Source: Picocystis sp. L7 (Eukaryota; Chlorophyta; Picocystophyceae; Picocystales; Picocystaceae). Taken from it: 64,000 bases of DNA. The stretch's first letter is position 1, and every line of letters starts with the position of its first letter. The DNA lies in assembly GCA_020975725.1 (NCBI GenBank), contig QXJR01000011.1, positions 1-64,000 on the forward strand. Reading direction: 5' to 3'. Position numbers and translations under genes: made by a program. Shown in pieces: positions 1-48,536 of the stretch. The notes under the pieces were generated by a model. The model was not told the DNA's origin. It saw only the letters and a list, made by a program, of their open reading frames with translations, and did not search any database.

Positions 1-720
1 AAACGCTGGCAGTCAGGCGTCGGGATGATTGCGTCTTGGATCCTTTATCAATCGTAGATTCAGGCATCGTGGGTGCCTGGAAGACTCGTCGGAGTGATTT
101 TGGACGAATTGGTCGTGCGTCCGAAGGGGTCGGGGTTGTTCCGACAGCTCGTTCGCACAGTACCCGAGGGGTTCACGAAAGTGGGAATTCCCCCCTTTTT
201 CTCTCTGTCTTCGTCTCATTCGCGCTCCTGAATACCCCCCTATGGTTCCTTCATCGTGATTGGTCCGAAGTCGGATGTCGTCCTCGGCGGGCATGGATAC
301 TTGCTCGGGATGTCCAATGGCAAATCTGCTACCCAAGGCATTTCCTTTACAGTCCCCGCTGAGTCGCCCCAAGTATCGGGATTCCTTGCTTCTGAACCCA
401 AATCGAGGGACAGAGCTTGGGAGGACCGCGAACTTTTGCAGCCGAACAGGGGACGGGAATCCCGGGTCTTCGCGTCGGAATTACACATTCTTACCGTACC
501 GAGTTTCGGGGGCTTCGATACGGCTCCTCTCAAACACGGGGAAGGTGTCCCGTGGGGGCAGTTTTGTCCCGTGGGGGCAGACCCCAATTCGACCCCTAAT
601 CCCTGTTTCGGCACGGGCATTTTGGGGTACCCCTTTTGCCCCGCGCCCCGAAATCCACCAATCAGAAGCAAGTCCTAAACCATTACCCCCCCCCCATCGC
701 AATCGCAAAAACTGTCTACC
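1..720. other. Unassigned sequence before the minisatellite
   Basis: Several overlapping open frames exist on both strands, but none resembles a known family or shows protein-like composition. The stretch ends in a C-run followed by a CATCGCAATCGCAAAAAC-type sequence (about 684-716) that recurs at about 3776-3812. It may be subtelomeric or repeat-flanking DNA. I see no supported gene. Confidence 0.4.
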
Positions 721-1500
721 TGAGGCCCAGAGCGTGGGCCAGCGGCCCAGAGCGTGCGCCTGAGGCCCAGAGCGTGGGCCTGCGGCCCTGAGCGTGGGCT
801 TGCGGCCCAGAGGGTGGGCCGGCGGCCCACGGGGGGGGGTGAGAGGCAGTGAGGGGTGGGCCTGCGGCCCAGAGCGTGGGCCTGAGGCCCAGAGCGTGGG
901 CCTGCGGCCCAGAGGGTGGGCCGGTTTAGGACCAGAGGCTGGGCCTGCGGCCCACGGGGGGGGGTGAGAGGCATTGAGGGGTGGGCCTGCGGCCCAGAGT
1001 GTGGGCCAGCGGCCCAGAGCGTTGGCCTGAGGCCCAGAGCGTGGGCCTGCGGCCCAGAGGGTGGGCCTGAGGCCCAGAGGGTGGGCCGCAGGCCCATGGG
1101 GGGGTGAGAGGCAGTGAGGGGTGGGCCTGCGGCCCAGAGCGTGGGCCTGAGGCCCAGAGCGTGGGCCTGCGGCCCAGAGGGTGGGCCGGTTTAGGACCAG
1201 AGGCTGGGCCTGCGGCCCACGGGGGGGGGTGAGAGGCATTGAGGGGTGGGCCTGCGGCCCAGAGCGTGGGCCTGAGGCCCAGAGCGTGGGCCTGAGGCCC
1301 AGAGCGTGGGCCTGAGGCCCAGAGCGTGGGCCTGCGGCCCAGAGGGTGGGCCTGAGGCCCAGAGGGTGGGCCGCAGGCCCATGGGGGGCTGAGAGGCAGT
1401 GAGGGGTGGGCCTGCGGCCCAGAGCGTGGGCCTGAGGCCCACGGGGGGGGGGGGGGGGGCGCGGCCGAGAGGGTGGGTCTGCGGCCCACGGGGGGGGTGA
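721..1500. repeat. GC-rich 20-bp minisatellite with higher-order period
   Basis: The array is built from variants of the 20-mer GGCCCAGAGCGTGGGCCTGM, where the variable base gives 'cctgcggccc' or 'cctgaggccc'. Longer interludes carry a G-run followed by GTGAGAGGCATTGAGGGG or GTGAGAGGCAGTGAGGGG. The insert GGTTTAGGACCAGAGGC occurs at 923 and again at 1188, so a higher-order unit of about 265 bp is itself duplicated. A run of 17 G lies at 1443-1459. Because 20 is not a multiple of three, long stop-free frames appear on the minus strand (coding for GPQAHALG-like repeats). They are a composition effect and are not called as genes. Confidence 0.93.
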
Positions 1501-2340
1501 GAGGCCGTGAGGATTGGGCGTGAGGCTCAAGGCTTGGGTTGTGCGGAAAGAATGGAGGTACCAAGATTGTTGGAGAAGTACGCGTCGCATTAGCGTGATC
1601 GATTAGGACGCAATGTCGGTACAAGTCTTTGTTGCATGGTAAAGGGGTAAAATTTGTTTGAGAAAGATTGGTTGGTGAATGGGCAGTGATGATGCTTCGT
1701 GAAGTTGGTTTTGAAGTGCATGGAGCGACGATACCGTCCATTTTTGAAGCGTTTGTAGTTCTTGAAAAGATCGGTAATGGATGGGAGAAGCAGCCATCAG
1801 TATTTTTATCTAGTGCGCAGTGCGATCGATTCTCTTTCGTCCTCCCTCGCGAAGATTCGCTCCAAGGGGAACGAGGGGAATGGGCATGAGCCGAGAGGGA
1901 TGCGAACCGATGCGAAGCCAACATGTATCATACGAGCCAACAATCGTCACAAGAGATGACCCTCCGATTTTTCAAGGAGTGTTCTACCTAATTGCATAAA
2001 AAAATACTTGTTTTAAGACGTAGGTACTCCGTACGAGTGCGCGTAAATCGACCCATCCCTTGTGGGAGGAACCCATGACGAGAATCCTCATTGTCTTCAA
2101 AGCGTCTAGGGTGCGTGCCGGCTACGTTGTAAATGCGGATAGGACATAAGAATTTTTGCTTGCTTCGATGCTCTCAACCACACCAAGTTGTTTGAATTCA
2201 TAAGTACACAACATACGGCTGCCACCTCAGCCAATCAAGGCACCTGTACCCCACTCACTTCTAACACATCCCCACCAGACACATTCAACCCAACCAAACC
2301 CAACAGCACCCGTGTCACGACGAGTTGCACATGCTCGTGT
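1501..2340. other. AT-richer spacer, no gene seen
   Basis: This 0.8-kb stretch is visibly more AT-rich than its flanks. Only short open frames without family resemblance are present. I see no RNA gene or clear regulatory element. Confidence 0.4.
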
Positions 2341-20931: not shown

Positions 20932-21154
20932 GCTTCAGGTTTGACTTTGATTACAGGGAGGGTAGAATCTCATTGGTCCATGTACTGGCATGGTGAGTTG
21001 TGTGGGTGGAGTCTTTTTCCGGCTTGCATCTCCTCTTATCTGATCAGCTCCATTGTCCATAAAGTATCAGTGTAATGAATCGTTGCACAGGTGACCTACA
21101 GCAGTGTGATCGTGATGCCCTTTGCTTTTTTGCCCCCCACATCCCTCTTTGTTG
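20932..21154. other. Tandem spacer between ARF and thioredoxin
   Basis: This short AT-rich spacer must hold the ARF 3' end and the thioredoxin promoter. No element is recognised. Confidence 0.35.
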
Positions 21155-21994
21155 ATGCAGGCATTGAGCGTCCTGCTTTCGCATCCAGCACTGGGTTGGG
21201 CATTTATCTCGCCCAAGCCCCGGTGCAAGGGCAATCGTTGGGCCTCCTGCCCTTCCGTCGCGACCCTGGTGTGCATCCGTCCTTGTCTCATGTTGGGCGG
21301 CCAGGCCACCAGGGTTCCTGTCCACGTGGAAAGCTCCCTCCCGTTCGTACAGGGTTTGGTTTTGCCCTACACCGGGTCGAATCCGCCCTCGAAAGGATCG
21401 ACCGGGTCGACCTTCTGGACTCCCCGATCAAATGGGGGGACTGATCCGAAAGCATTCCAGGGTGCAGTACGGACCGTCCAAGGGACGTCGGTGTCGGAAA
21501 GTCCCTCCGAAAGCCTCCGCAGACCAGCGGTGTCCAGCAGAATGGCCGTCGCTGCGCTCGGAAGAACAACAATTGTCGGGAAAGGAGGGAGACGAACCAA
21601 CAACATCCATGCTTACAGGATCAAGGCGGGTGAAAAAACTGGGTACATCACCTCGAAAGAAGAGCTGAAGCAACTGACCGACACCAACCACACGCTCGTG
21701 GTGGACTGGATGGCGCTTTGGTGCAGGAAATGCATCTACCTGAAACCAAAACTCGAAAAGTTGTGCGTGAGACAGGGGGTGCCGGTTGCCTTCGTGGACG
21801 TCAACAACGCCCCTTCTGCACTGGTAAGAGAGAACGGGGTTCAACACATGCCCACTATTCAGGTCTGGAACCAGGGCGTGGTTGCAGGTGCCATCGTTGG
21901 AGGAACAGAAGCTGCGGATGTCGTGGCAAAAGTAGAAAAACTCCTCGACGAATCCCGACTTGCGAACGCGGAAGTCGACAGCCATGCTTCATAA
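21155..21994 (+). CDS. Plastid thioredoxin-like protein, WCRKC type
   Basis: The C-terminal 130 residues form a thioredoxin fold whose active site reads VDWMALWCRKCIYLKPKLEKL, followed by VAFVDVNNAPSALV and the cis-proline MPTIQVW. This fits the plant WCRKC1/WCRKC2 family of chloroplast thioredoxin-like proteins closely. The atypical Arg-Lys active site implies redox properties different from classic WCGPC thioredoxins. The first roughly 140 residues are Ser/Pro/Arg-rich with few acidic residues, as expected for a long plastid transit peptide. I chose the ATG at 21155; another in-frame ATG lies at 21122. Targets are unknown. Confidence 0.9.
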   Translation: MQALSVLLSHPALGWAFISPKPRCKGNRWASCPSVATLVCIRPCLMLGGQATRVPVHVESSLPFVQGLVLPYTGSNPPSKGSTGSTFWTPRSNGGTDPKAFQGAVRTVQGTSVSESPSESLRRPAVSSRMAVAALGRTTIVGKGGRRTNNIHAYRIKAGEKTGYITSKEELKQLTDTNHTLVVDWMALWCRKCIYLKPKLEKLCVRQGVPVAFVDVNNAPSALVRENGVQHMPTIQVWNQGVVAGAIVGGTEAADVVAKVEKLLDESRLANAEVDSHAS

Positions 21995-33955: not shown

Positions 33956-35119
33956 TCGCCAACCTCTGCTGATCGTGCGGACGAGGCCAAACGATGTGCG
34001 TCTTCCCTTTCGGGATCGCATCGTATTCCCTCGTCGCTCGCCCAACTCTCACCCCCTGGGTCCCTCCTTTCTCCCCTTCCCTTTCGGGTCGGGAACGACC
34101 CAAAGGGGGGGGGGGACGGGGATCCGAGAAGGACGTCCCCATCTCTTTTCCCCCATCCCCCCCCCCACGGGGGTGCGATCGATCCGGATGGGGACAACGA
34201 GGGGAGCACCCCACCGCCACTTTTTCTTCATAGGGAGAGAGGGGGTGTCGCTGTGGGATCCGTGGAGCCTCCGGAGGACCTCTCCAGTCGTTGCCCTTCC
34301 AATCGAAGTTGTAGAGCACTCCGTTTTGAGGGGTTTGTATCGATGGACCCCGACCTGGTTCGGCCCGTGCAAGAGCAGGGAGGCCCGTGCACGTCCCAGG
34401 GTCTTTCGGGGCTGGATCCTGCCTCGTTTCCCCTGGCGGGTTCTCCTTTCTTTCGATGCGCGTATCTCTTCGAATATGGGTTCAGATCGAGCGAACGATA
34501 GCTCGTTGGATAGGTCTCGGCGCGTTCTTTCGAACGGTGCTCTCAAAACGCCCAAATTCTGCCTGGCGCGATTTCTACAGGCGAAAGACCACCGGCAGGT
34601 GGTGGGGACCCCAAACGGCACCGCTGCTCAACACCTCCCCGAGGGCAGCCGAGCGCCCACGGGGAACCGGACCGCCAAACCCGGGGAAGGGAAAGACAGA
34701 AAGATAGGACACCTTCAGGAGAAAAATCGGATCGAGAGTCGATGATCCTGGTGCCATGAAGCGCATGTTCAACCGCCTGGCCAAAACGCCCAAAAAAAGG
34801 GTGAATTTGGTGAACTCCCCGAGCCAGCCGCACCGAGTTCACCCAGAAGACAAACGATCCAGGACTAACCAAGCTCAGATTCGGATTCTGCTCGTCGAAT
34901 CACCTGGAAACACCACAAAAAAGAACGGGGAACAGGCCTGATGTGAAGAAAAAGCCCGAGGACTCACGCTTTCCCGAAGTGGCGGTGGGGTGGAGGATCC
35001 ACGGGTTCCATCCCCCTCCTGGTGACACCGGTCTGTCCCGGGGTGGACACGGTTCGCCACAAGGGAAGTGGGATCCCCTCTGGACCCAAGAAGGTGCCAG
35101 GTGGACGGGACATGGCGGG
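33956..35119. other. 1.2-kb tandem spacer, no gene seen
   Basis: GC-rich sequence with a run of 11 G at 34105-34115. Several frames of about 60-190 codons are present on both strands, including a 61-codon basic frame at 34756-34941, but none is recognised. Confidence 0.4.
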
Positions 35120-36382
35120 ATGGCCGAAGCGTTCTGGACCGCAGGGAGGCTCTCCGCGGAATCCGTGCTCGAAGCCTTGCTGGTGGCCTTCGTGGGCGTG
35201 GTGCTGGGATGGCAAGGACACGTGGACAAAACAGGGAGGGAAGTGGTGAGCAAGATGTGCGCCAGAGCCTTCGTGCCGGCACTCGTGTTCGACAAACTGT
35301 GCCGATCCGTCACCGTCGAAGACATTGCCACGTGGTGGCCGCTGCCACTCAACGTGCTGGTGTCCATCCTGAGCGGAGGATCCGCAGGGATCCTGTGTGC
35401 CAAGCTCGCCGGAATCAAAAAACCACACCACATGATGTTCATGTGCGCCAGTGCGCTGGGAAACCTGGGAAACCTGCCGCTGGTGCTCATCCACGCCGTG
35501 TGCACCAGCGAAAGCTCGCCGTTCGGAACGGAGTGCGAAGAAAGAGGAATCGCATACGTCGCCTTCGGAATGTTCACCGCCACGCTCGTGCAATGGAGCG
35601 TCGCCAACGTGCTGCTGGCACCGCCCAAACCCGAAAACGAAGCCGGGTTCGAACTGGCTCGCAGGAACGGTTCCGACGCGCCGCGTCGACTCGGACCTCC
35701 CGACGGAAACGTGCCGGACGTGGAAGGCGAGTCGGAGAAAGACGCGCTGATCTCGCAAGGAGAAATCGAAGTGGAAGTCCTGGGTGCGGACATCCACCCA
35801 GACGAACTGGGCTGGAAGGCGGTGGAGGAAAACGGAGGAGACGCCTACCAGGATGGAAGCACAGGTTGGCGGTACTCCGTCCTCCTGAAGCAACTGCTCA
35901 CACCCCCGGTCCTGGCCACCTTTCTGGCCCTGTTCATCGGGGCGGTGCCTGCGCTGAAAGGTTTGCTTTACGGACCGGGCGCACCACTGGCGCCGCTAAG
36001 CAACGCCATCGCGGTGACGGGGGCGGGGATGGTGCCGTCCCTGCTGATTCTGCTGGGCTCCTTGCTTTCCGAAGGTCCATCGACCTCCACCTTGCAAAAG
36101 CGGACCATTCTGCTCATCGTCTGCCTCCGGGGTGCCGTTCTACCCGTCCTGGGCATGGGCTTTGTGGCTTTGTTGAAGGCAACGGGGTGCCTTCCCCGAG
36201 ATCCGTTGTTCCAATTCGTGCTCCTCATTCAGCACGCATTGCCATCGGCCATCAATCTTTCCACCATCGCCACGATGCACGATCACAATGCCCTGGAAAT
36301 GTCCTCTCTGTTGTTTTACCAGTACATAGCGGCGATTTTGTTCATGCCGGCTTTTCTGACCGTTTACCTGAGGATCCTCTAG
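35120..36382 (+). CDS. PIN-LIKES (PILS)/auxin efflux carrier family protein
   Basis: The 420-residue product has about ten transmembrane helices in two groups (residues 15-175 and 265-420) around a hydrophilic, acidic loop (about 180-260). This is the layout of PILS and fungal auxin-efflux-carrier-like (Pfam Mem_trans) proteins of the endoplasmic reticulum. Conserved-looking features include SKMCARAFVPALVFDKLC, FMCASALGNLGNLPLVLIHAVC and LIQHALPSAINLSTIATMH. The last of these matches the C-terminal PxSxNxxxI family motif. The substrate in an alga is unknown; ER transport of auxin-like compounds is inference. I chose the ATG at 35120 because the preceding 59 codons have no family match. Confidence 0.87.
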   Translation: MAEAFWTAGRLSAESVLEALLVAFVGVVLGWQGHVDKTGREVVSKMCARAFVPALVFDKLCRSVTVEDIATWWPLPLNVLVSILSGGSAGILCAKLAGIKKPHHMMFMCASALGNLGNLPLVLIHAVCTSESSPFGTECEERGIAYVAFGMFTATLVQWSVANVLLAPPKPENEAGFELARRNGSDAPRRLGPPDGNVPDVEGESEKDALISQGEIEVEVLGADIHPDELGWKAVEENGGDAYQDGSTGWRYSVLLKQLLTPPVLATFLALFIGAVPALKGLLYGPGAPLAPLSNAIAVTGAGMVPSLLILLGSLLSEGPSTSTLQKRTILLIVCLRGAVLPVLGMGFVALLKATGCLPRDPLFQFVLLIQHALPSAINLSTIATMHDHNALEMSSLLFYQYIAAILFMPAFLTVYLRIL

Positions 36383-36784: not shown

Positions 36785-38011
36785 TCATCGTTCTTCTGCG
36801 GTGGATCGGATGCTGGCTTGATACCCTTGTTCGGAGAGCAGTTCCATATGGGCCTGTGCTGTTTTCGCATTGGAGAAAGTCCCCGCATGAATTTCGTCGT
36901 GTTCGCATCCTTCTTGTTCGTGTCCCAGCATCCTCACGCACCAGGCACCCGGGGCGACCTCCTGCAACCTTTCCATATGTTTTTCATTCTGGTATTGGAC
37001 CAGCACTTTGTACCTTGGATTTTTCTTTTCCATCCAGTACTTCCTGATCCCGTCCACGACGCCTCTTGCCGCCAGTTTGGTCAATTGCGTTCCGATCCTT
37101 TCGTATCCGTCGACGGTCTGGTCATCCATGAAGTACGGTTCCACGAGGCAGGCGGCTTCCACGTCCATCGGCACGGTTCCCAGCACCCCTAGGTTTTGCC
37201 ATTTGACCCCTCTGTCTTTTTGTGCGACGCACCAAGCATCGACGCATTCGGACCAGAGCTTCCGCACCACGCCGCTTTGCACGTGATGGGCGAGTTGCAC
37301 GTCTTCGTCGGTCCCGTCCACGTCCACGAGTGTCTCGGTGCCTTGGGTCTTCCCGTCGTGCGCGTTGTGATGACACGACACGAACAGGTGGTGTCCTTTG
37401 GCCTTCTTCCCTCGCTCTGGAAGCCACAGCCTTTCCACGTGATCTTCGCCGTATCGATAGACGTTGACGTGTGCGCCTCTCCTGCGCAGCCCTTGAGCGA
37501 TCTCCTCCGAGAGCACGGAATTGAGCTGGAATTCTTCCGTCCCTCGGACGCCGCGGCTTCCCACTTCGAATCCCAGGGGATGGGCGCCGTGTCCCACGTC
37601 CAAGGCCACGCGGAGGCCGCGAAGCTCGTGTCCGCTCCTGCGCGTACGAAAGCTTCGCGTCTCCTCTTCGTCCGACCCTGGATCCGATCCATCGCTGTCG
37701 GAATGCACCGTCGATCGTCCCACGAGCTCCCTTCCGACCTCGGACGCACGCTGGATATCGCTTCCTTCCTTCTGGTGGATCCATCTCTGGTACGCAGACG
37801 CGCAATCCGGTCCGAACACGCCGTCCACCGCCAATCCCACCTGTCGCTGGAACTCCTGCACGCCTGCTGCGGTCCTGGGTCCGTACCACGCGCTGGCGGG
37901 TCCTTGGTAGGCGTTCCTGTCCGCCAGGTGCCTCTGCAGGCATGCCACGTCCTCGCCAGCCGCACCTGGTCCCAAAACACGTCGAAACTCGCACGCGCCA
38001 CGACGTGGCAT
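36785..38011 (-). CDS. Bacterial-type N-acetylmuramoyl-L-alanine amidase (PG-binding, Amidase_3, SPOR-like)
   Basis: From the ATG at 38011 the product has 408 residues. Residues 10-70 form a PG_binding_1 domain (EDVACLQRHLADRNAY, WYGPRTAAGVQEFQRQVGL, AVDGVFGP). Residues 130-325 form a zinc amidase of the Amidase_3 (AmiA/CwlC) family, with probable ligands in DVGHG (H141), RGTEE (E159/E160) and SCHHNAH (about H215), and catalytic Glu in CLVEPYF (E291). Residues 343-403 (YKVLVQYQNE to SEQGYQASIR) look like a SPOR peptidoglycan-binding repeat. Such proteins cut the amide bond between muramic acid and the stem peptide. The frame stays open to 38677, but that part overlaps the TerC gene and two promoter palindromes, so I prefer 38011. 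It may be a transferred bacterial gene. Confidence 0.9.
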   Translation of the reverse strand: MPRRGACEFRRVLGPGAAGEDVACLQRHLADRNAYQGPASAWYGPRTAAGVQEFQRQVGLAVDGVFGPDCASAYQRWIHQKEGSDIQRASEVGRELVGRSTVHSDSDGSDPGSDEEETRSFRTRRSGHELRGLRVALDVGHGAHPLGFEVGSRGVRGTEEFQLNSVLSEEIAQGLRRRGAHVNVYRYGEDHVERLWLPERGKKAKGHHLFVSCHHNAHDGKTQGTETLVDVDGTDEDVQLAHHVQSGVVRKLWSECVDAWCVAQKDRGVKWQNLGVLGTVPMDVEAACLVEPYFMDDQTVDGYERIGTQLTKLAARGVVDGIRKYWMEKKNPRYKVLVQYQNEKHMERLQEVAPGAWCVRMLGHEQEGCEHDEIHAGTFSNAKTAQAHMELLSEQGYQASIRSTAEER

Positions 38012-38231
38012 GTCGGCATGTCCGTGGTGTGGGTGTGCCGATCCGTCGGGCTCGCTTCCCTTTCCCAAGGGAGGCGAACCCGGGTTCGAAAGGGACCGCA
38101 CCGCGGGTTCGAACCCGACGTCGAAAGGGTGGACCGTATGGACCGTAGGGTCCATGCAGTCCATGGGCGGTCCTCGAGGCGTGGTGGAGTGGGCGGTGTG
38201 GCGCGCAGAGGCCAACCTTGCACCGACGAGG
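38012..38231. promoter_or_regulatory. Bidirectional promoter region amidase / TerC
   Basis: About 220 bp between the chosen divergent starts, containing two TTCGAA-centred sites: CGGGTTCGAAAGGG at 38081-38094 and the perfect palindrome CGGGTTCGAACCCG at 38104-38117. Confidence 0.5.
38081..38117. promoter_or_regulatory. Pair of TTCGAA-centred 14-mers
   Basis: CGGGTTCGAAAGGG (38081-38094) combines both half-site types seen elsewhere. CGGGTTCGAACCCG (38104-38117) is identical to the site at 32757-32770. Their presence argues that this is promoter rather than coding DNA. Confidence 0.5.
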
Positions 38232-43401
<5,170 letters not shown>

Positions 43402-48464: not shown

Positions 48465-48536
48465 TGCCGGCACTCGGAATTGAACCGAGGACCGCTGCAT
48501 TACAAGTGCAGCGCTCTACCCCTGAGCTATACCGGC
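48465..48536 (-). tRNA. tRNA-Thr(UGU)
   Basis: The minus strand folds into a complete cloverleaf of 72 nt. The acceptor stem GCCGGTA pairs with TGCCGGC (one G-U), with discriminator A. The D arm contains the A box TAGCTCAGGGGTAGAGC. The anticodon stem CTGCA/TGCAG encloses CTTGTAA, giving anticodon TGT. The T arm carries the B box GGTTCAATTCC. There is no intron and CCA is not encoded. Confidence 0.97.

Follow-up and report, generated by a model that had tools for sequence, protein, structure and literature searches.

At positions 36785 to 38011 on the reverse strand of the window, by which we mean the whole 64,000-nucleotide stretch of Picocystis sp. L7 DNA that was analysed, lies a gene for a predicted peptidoglycan amidase, which a profile search of the genome (20.5 Mb in 30 contigs) returned as its one Amidase_3 match. 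The features of the locus are, in order along the window:

34943..36382 (+), membrane transport protein of the PIN-like family, its 3' end facing the amidase; PF03547 (Mem_trans), 154.7 bits
36785..38011 (-), amidase gene, minimal frame of 408 residues plus stop; open reading frame and Pfam
36788..37036 (-), C-terminal SPOR-like domain, residues 326-408; SPOR below cut-off, fold match to the CwlC SPOR domain (1x60)
37094..37609 (-), Amidase_3 catalytic domain, residues 135-306; Pfam 69.1 bits, E 6.2e-19, cut-off 27
37802..37957 (-), PG_binding_1 domain, residues 19-70; Pfam 44.6 bits, E 1.6e-11, cut-off 23
38010..39383 (+), TerC-family gene, divergent neighbour, start codon provisional; PF03741, 150 bits
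38012..38242 (-), possible N-terminal extension and presequence candidate in open frame; a start at 38242 gives 485 residues in total

A preliminary description of this DNA had placed the amidase among normal nuclear genes and paired it with a TerC gene, and the profile searches bear this out; both neighbours are eukaryotic, the TerC gene is divergently oriented, and the ATGs of TerC (38010, +) and the amidase (38011, -) overlap within a single CATG. Elsewhere in the window, a tRNA gene (48465-48536, -) is the sole Rfam match at the gathering threshold, and a long tandem repeat of GPQAH/LGRRPT type, seen by eye in open frames at 481-1924 (-), is probably a minisatellite and not a gene.

The amidase start at 38011 is insecure, as the same frame stays open upstream as far as a stop at 38722-38720 and holds in-frame ATGs at 38155, 38164, 38242, 38584 and 38671. 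A start at 38011 leaves almost no room for a presequence, given that residue 19 already belongs to PG_binding_1. With the ATG at 38242 the protein would gain an extension of 77 residues, which looks transit-like by eye at its beginning and contains no export segment; the codon score of 38012-38281 is -0.046, indistinguishable from that of the equally scored region upstream of TerC. A hydrophobic export segment is absent with the starts at 38242, 38164, 38155 and 38011, for which the maximal 19-residue Kyte-Doolittle mean over the first 100 residues is 0.26-0.45. The start at 38671 reaches 1.26, similar to the 1.20 of the class A PBP described below, and lies antisense within the TerC domain. 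Overall, no clear transit-plus-export or secretory signal emerged from the five starts scored (38671, 38242, 38164, 38155 and 38011).

Codon use was assessed with a score trained on 13 other segments of the window. The amidase scores 0.137 per codon, within the range of the 13 training genes (0.03-0.26, which is somewhat flattering to them because they were scored by their own model), and the five other frames of the same stretch score 0.001 or less. With native codon use and eukaryotic neighbours, the amidase is a native nuclear gene. By comparison, it is very improbable that the gene stems from bacterial DNA that recently contaminated the assembly, or that it is a dead and unexpressed transfer. 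The domain set is indeed bacterial, and the homologue searches spanned bacterial, plasmid, phage and viral collections only; however, the gene is flanked by eukaryotic genes on contig C9, its codon score sits in the native range and above its five other frames, and both its frame and its active site are intact. Moreover, the best bacterial identity is about 40%, and in the tree the protein stands on a long branch, with nothing bacterial nearly identical to it. Contamination, a concern raised in the preliminary description, was rejected on neighbours and codon use, and the long branch contradicts it as well.

Domains, active site and fold

The two N-terminal assignments of the preliminary description, PG_binding_1 and Amidase_3, are both significant by Pfam, with the scores listed above. 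No AMIN domain was matched, Pfam giving three families at E up to 10 and AMIN not among them. In the amidase alignments H141, E160, H214 and E291 occupy conserved columns; the site had earlier been read as H141, E159/160, H215 and E291, of which H141, E160 and E291 stand and H215 gives way to H214. We take H141, E160 and H214 to be zinc ligands and E291 to be the catalytic glutamate, the roles that these residues have in the Amidase_3 family. By profile and conserved active site the protein is a member of PF01520, and peptidoglycan hydrolysis is its predicted activity. Endolysin families were matched in PHROGs, the best being phrog_435, a phage endolysin family, at 61.9 bits (E 1.1e-16), which is nearly the score obtained with Pfam; in NCBIfam there were only partial matches, far below the cut-offs.

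For the C-terminal domain, SPOR (PF05036) scored 15.9 bits (E 0.017) with the full protein and 16.7 bits (E 0.0095) with the last 83 residues alone, in both cases under the cut-off of 21, and it was the only Pfam family listed for those residues at E up to 1. A PDB sequence search with this domain returned a single irrelevant match (E 0.87).

Structural models were then compared with the PDB using Foldseek. The AlphaFold2 model of the whole protein, made with a 30-row alignment, has a mean pLDDT of 78.9; Nostoc AmiC2 heads its list of matches (5emi, E 5.6e-13), further Amidase_3 enzymes come next, and the N-terminal peptidoglycan-binding domain of SleB (6tci, E 1.2e-3) stands at rank 36. A single-sequence AlphaFold2 model of the C-terminal 83 residues (pLDDT 73.5) has a beta-alpha-beta-alpha-beta arrangement with a short further strand, and the PDB entry that it matches first is 1x60, the SPOR domain of Bacillus CwlC (E 0.028, probability 0.99, TM about 0.5, as obtained with a single-sequence model). 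No PDB match to this model reached E 0.001; PII-like and other ferredoxin-like folds appear from E 0.12, and the SPOR domain of DedD stands at rank 25. The SPOR-like C terminus of the preliminary description therefore has tentative support from the fold, the CwlC SPOR domain being the first match, and falls short of the Pfam threshold (16.7 against 21), so that "SPOR-like" appears a fair name for the modelled fold. CwlC itself has a catalytic Amidase_3 domain followed by a C-terminal SPOR domain, an order like that of the algal protein. Unlike CwlC, the algal protein has an additional N-terminal PG_binding_1 domain, and its SPOR assignment is by fold only.

These results also bear on a second way of reading the protein, as a plastid peptidoglycan enzyme for stromal recycling and turnover or for general remodelling, having no role at the division site and a C-terminal domain of another ferredoxin-like fold. 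The SPOR score below the Pfam cut-off, the PII-like and other ferredoxin-like folds close behind CwlC (E 0.12 and up) and the export signal not being seen are all consistent with it. However, the first fold match is the SPOR domain of an amidase sharing the catalytic domain type, and no other Pfam family than SPOR was listed for that region at E up to 1, and we consider such an enzyme decidedly unlikely.

Phylogenetic affinity of the amidase

With the algal amidase as query, 11 of 72,556 plasmid records matched, amidases of Leptolyngbya plasmids coming first (E 5e-11), and 22 phage records matched at E of about 1e-3. Two viral-contig scans, covering 2 and 66 stretches, gave no confirmed relative. 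Across 292 cyanobacterial genomes the best amidase match had an E of 9.5e-23; matches with an E no higher than 1e-6 occurred in 32 genomes, many of them to PG_binding_1 or to AMIN-type amidases, and in four genomes the E of an amidase match was below 1e-12. The phylum to which a Clostridia MAG (L029) belongs was searched through 398 genomes, with a best E of 9.4e-13. A scan of genome contigs for relatives covered at least 593 stretches, with at least 50 confirmed.

An amidase tree was built from 95 loci with a domain match, reduced to 84 with at least 130 residues and then to 79 distinct rows. The rows were recruited by similarity to the algal protein or to an alignment that included two Leptolyngbya amidases, and the accessory family is therefore over-sampled in the tree. 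Among these 79 rows the algal amidase has a long branch (0.97) and shares a clade, at a support of 100/95, with eight cyanobacterial rows, seven of them accessory amidases and the eighth long-branched; the bootstrap had not fully settled. Forcing the algal amidase to join the AMIN-type amidases, 18 rows in all, is rejected at p-AU 0.021 with a cost of 52 log units, in a test chosen post hoc. The closest cyanobacterial family is an accessory one and not the housekeeping division amidase. We read the placement as a cyanobacterial affinity, which may have arisen through endosymbiotic or later transfer; an ordinary transfer of AmiC, the division amidase, from the endosymbiont was considered and is unsupported by the tree and by the p-AU of 0.021.

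Among the matches listed, the best-scoring relatives are the Leptolyngbya plasmid amidases (BAY59415.1 and BAU15747.1), L088, L026-L028 and L089, all of the same 100/95 clade. They share with the algal protein the stretches RGVKxQxLxVL and E-x-x-F-x-D, and their identity to it is about 40% at best. In these cyanobacterial accessory amidases, PG_binding_1 is absent from the matched place and a SPOR-like tail was not seen, whereas the algal protein has both. Neither the plasmid nor the phage collection yielded the algal domain set as a unit, no single place in them covering 80% of the protein. In four Oscillatoriales loci (L026, L027, L028 and L089) the related amidase is a module of very large exoproteins, in which a subtilisin-like protease part and LysM/SH3-like repeats can be recognised by eye. 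The cyanobacterial AMIN-Amidase_3 enzymes, such as Nostoc AmiC2, have the catalytic fold in common with the algal protein but form a separate clade, and the algal protein has no AMIN match.

It is also conceivable that the protein is an antibacterial or prey-digesting lysin of bacterial or phage type, acquired horizontally and turned against other bacteria, either within the cell (phagosome or cytosol) or outside it. Its layout of PG_binding_1 and Amidase_3 without a signal recalls endolysins, as does the phrog_435 score (61.9 bits), and acquired amidases are known in other eukaryotes, namely Trepomonas (PMC4967989) and Braarudosphaera (PMC8679911), according to the available portions of these papers. 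Against this, the five starts give no clear secretory signal, the clade of the algal amidase contains none of the tree's five phage lysins (L135-L139), phage matches reach only E of about 1e-3, and the viral-contig scans hold no relative. In addition, the host's own peptidoglycan-synthesis genes, described below, imply an internal substrate, and we regard a lysin as unlikely. Braarudosphaera bigelowii, a haptophyte, does provide a parallel in that its algal nuclear amidases are likewise of cyanobacterial affinity; in the available part of that study, however, they group with Cyanobium, Prochlorococcus and Synechococcus, and their owner is the host of a nitrogen-fixing endosymbiont, with no green plastid wall context (PMC8679911).

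Peptidoglycan genes and plastid type

The searches covered seven of the ten core peptidoglycan-synthesis enzymes (the other three being MurA, MurG and Ddl), and all seven, MurB, MurC, MurD, MurE, MurF, MraY and PBP1A, were found, each above its curated NCBIfam cut-off. Their places in the genome, with that of a folate ligase also matched by Mur_ligase_M, are:

C25, MurE; C6, MurF; C7, MurD; C2, MurC; C5, folate ligase; all as Mur_ligase_M matches
C6, class A PBP with transglycosylase and transpeptidase domains
C7, MurB; C6, MraY; both by family searches

The frames of MurE, MraY and the PBP start with stretches rich in R, S and A that look transit-like by eye. Peptidase_M23 was matched above the cut-off at four loci, L116 (C2), L117 (C6), L118 (C21) and L119 (C8). 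The first of these has a LysM domain (46.1 bits) in the upstream stretch of the same strand, then a LysM remnant (20.5 bits, cut-off 20.9) and M23 at 118.9 bits; we take the stop codons that interrupt the upstream stretch to mark introns, and by its predicted domain content L116 is DipM-like.

The following background comes from the available portions of the papers cited. Complete peptidoglycan pathways have been described in Micromonas pusilla and in prasinophyte classes III and VII (van Baren 2016, PMC4815162), and a survey of ten synthesis enzymes and FtsZ found that several green algae keep peptidoglycan genes (MacLeod 2023, PMC10784329). There is evidence of peptidoglycan in angiosperm and moss plastids, and the GFP-tagged AMIN domain of E. 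coli AmiC gathers round chloroplasts (PMC9954125). DipM (LysM plus M23) is a plastid-division peptidoglycan hydrolase in Cyanophora and Physcomitrella (PMC4015805); the same domain pair occurs in the algal L116, and DipM is an M23 endopeptidase whereas the protein in the window is an amidase. A search for Ami, DipM/NlpD and EnvC found DipM alone in photosynthetic eukaryotes, and no DipM in green algae, within the part of that report available (Miyagishima 2014, PMC4015805). Set against this 2014 report of DipM absence, the present genome is that of a green alga with four M23 genes, one of them LysM-bearing (DipM-like). The word "amidase" is missing from the available main text of one genome paper (PMC4815162) and from the main texts of those on Prasinoderma (PMC7455551) and Cymbomonas (PMC5741210), and our searches of open-licence papers turned up no account of a plastid amidase from a green alga.

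As regards the plastid itself, the genome holds 18 chlorophyll-binding matches. For one antenna frame (L008) the score is 394 bits against chain 6kac_Y, from a Chlamydomonas structure, and exceeds 340 bits against many chlorophyll a-b binding proteins. Because the antenna genes match green-lineage LHCII, the plastid is of the green lineage, and a secondary plastid of red origin, which had been entertained, was set aside on the same ground. The plastid may be a green secondary one; the first antenna match, 9vfj, is a multi-antenna protein. At 21122-21994 (+) of the window a thioredoxin-like protein has, by eye, a signal-peptide-like stretch followed by phenylalanine, resembling a complex-plastid presequence, which is probably a coincidence; it was this plastid-type gene that had brought a red secondary plastid into consideration.

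Proposed role at the plastid wall

We propose that the gene encodes a nuclear zinc N-acetylmuramoyl-L-alanine amidase of cyanobacterial affinity that remodels or splits the plastid wall of a peptidoglycan-making green alga, a reading to which we give a probability of roughly 0.6 and in which import, export, activity and the role in division are inferred. The argument is that the genome encodes most of the peptidoglycan-synthesis enzymes, so that the amidase probably trims a thin wall that possibly survives around the chloroplast. If peptidoglycan precursors and a class A PBP are made, hydrolases are needed for the growth and splitting of that wall. Plastid division, prey digestion and defence were the three roles offered in the preliminary description, and the first is now the best supported, by the seven synthesis enzymes found out of seven and by the M23 hydrolases.

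Mechanistically, the protein would be imported into the plastid and would then pass into the space between the envelope membranes, where the N-terminal PG_binding_1 domain would attach it to the plastid wall. Amidase_3 would cleave the bond joining MurNAc to the peptide stem, and the C-terminal SPOR-like domain would possibly hold the enzyme on the resulting stem-less glycan. On the simplest account, the amidase would act on this wall in concert with the LysM/M23 (DipM-like) endopeptidases, reshaping or splitting it as the plastid grows and divides. Several observations weigh against the proposed reading: there is no assignable transit peptide and no export segment, the cyanobacterial family is an accessory one, phrog_435 scores nearly as well as Pfam, and SPOR is below threshold.

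SPOR domains bind peptide-stripped glycan, the product of amidases, which is enriched at septa (PMC9116674 and PMC6895207, in the portions available). It is tempting, if doubtful, to suppose that a septal hydrolase able to target itself has been retained, or assembled anew, in the plastid: the amidase would bare the glycan and the SPOR domain joined to it would bind there, marking the division site and amplifying its splitting as in the bacterial septum. If so, the protein would be without precedent in plastids both as an amidase and as a SPOR protein, and would operate in a green alga alongside M23 enzymes of DipM-like type; a working SPOR-like domain would offer a natural marker for stem-less plastid glycan. 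We found no description in the literature of how a green-algal plastid opens its wall to grow or divide. The candidates that this genome supplies are few and concrete, namely the amidase with its wall-binding domains and the four M23 enzymes, and this makes the question testable.

PG_binding_1 also occurs at three further places in the genome, on C27, C16 and C15. The one on C16 (L004, 126861-127037) scores 40.2 bits; the C-terminal region behind it resembles mTERF by eye, with no mTERF match in Pfam. In those on C27 (L002, 210212-210364) and C15 (L005, 95541-95705), PG_binding_1 is followed by a stretch that appears hydrophobic by eye, and it is possible that these two are membrane-anchored, wall-binding plastid proteins.
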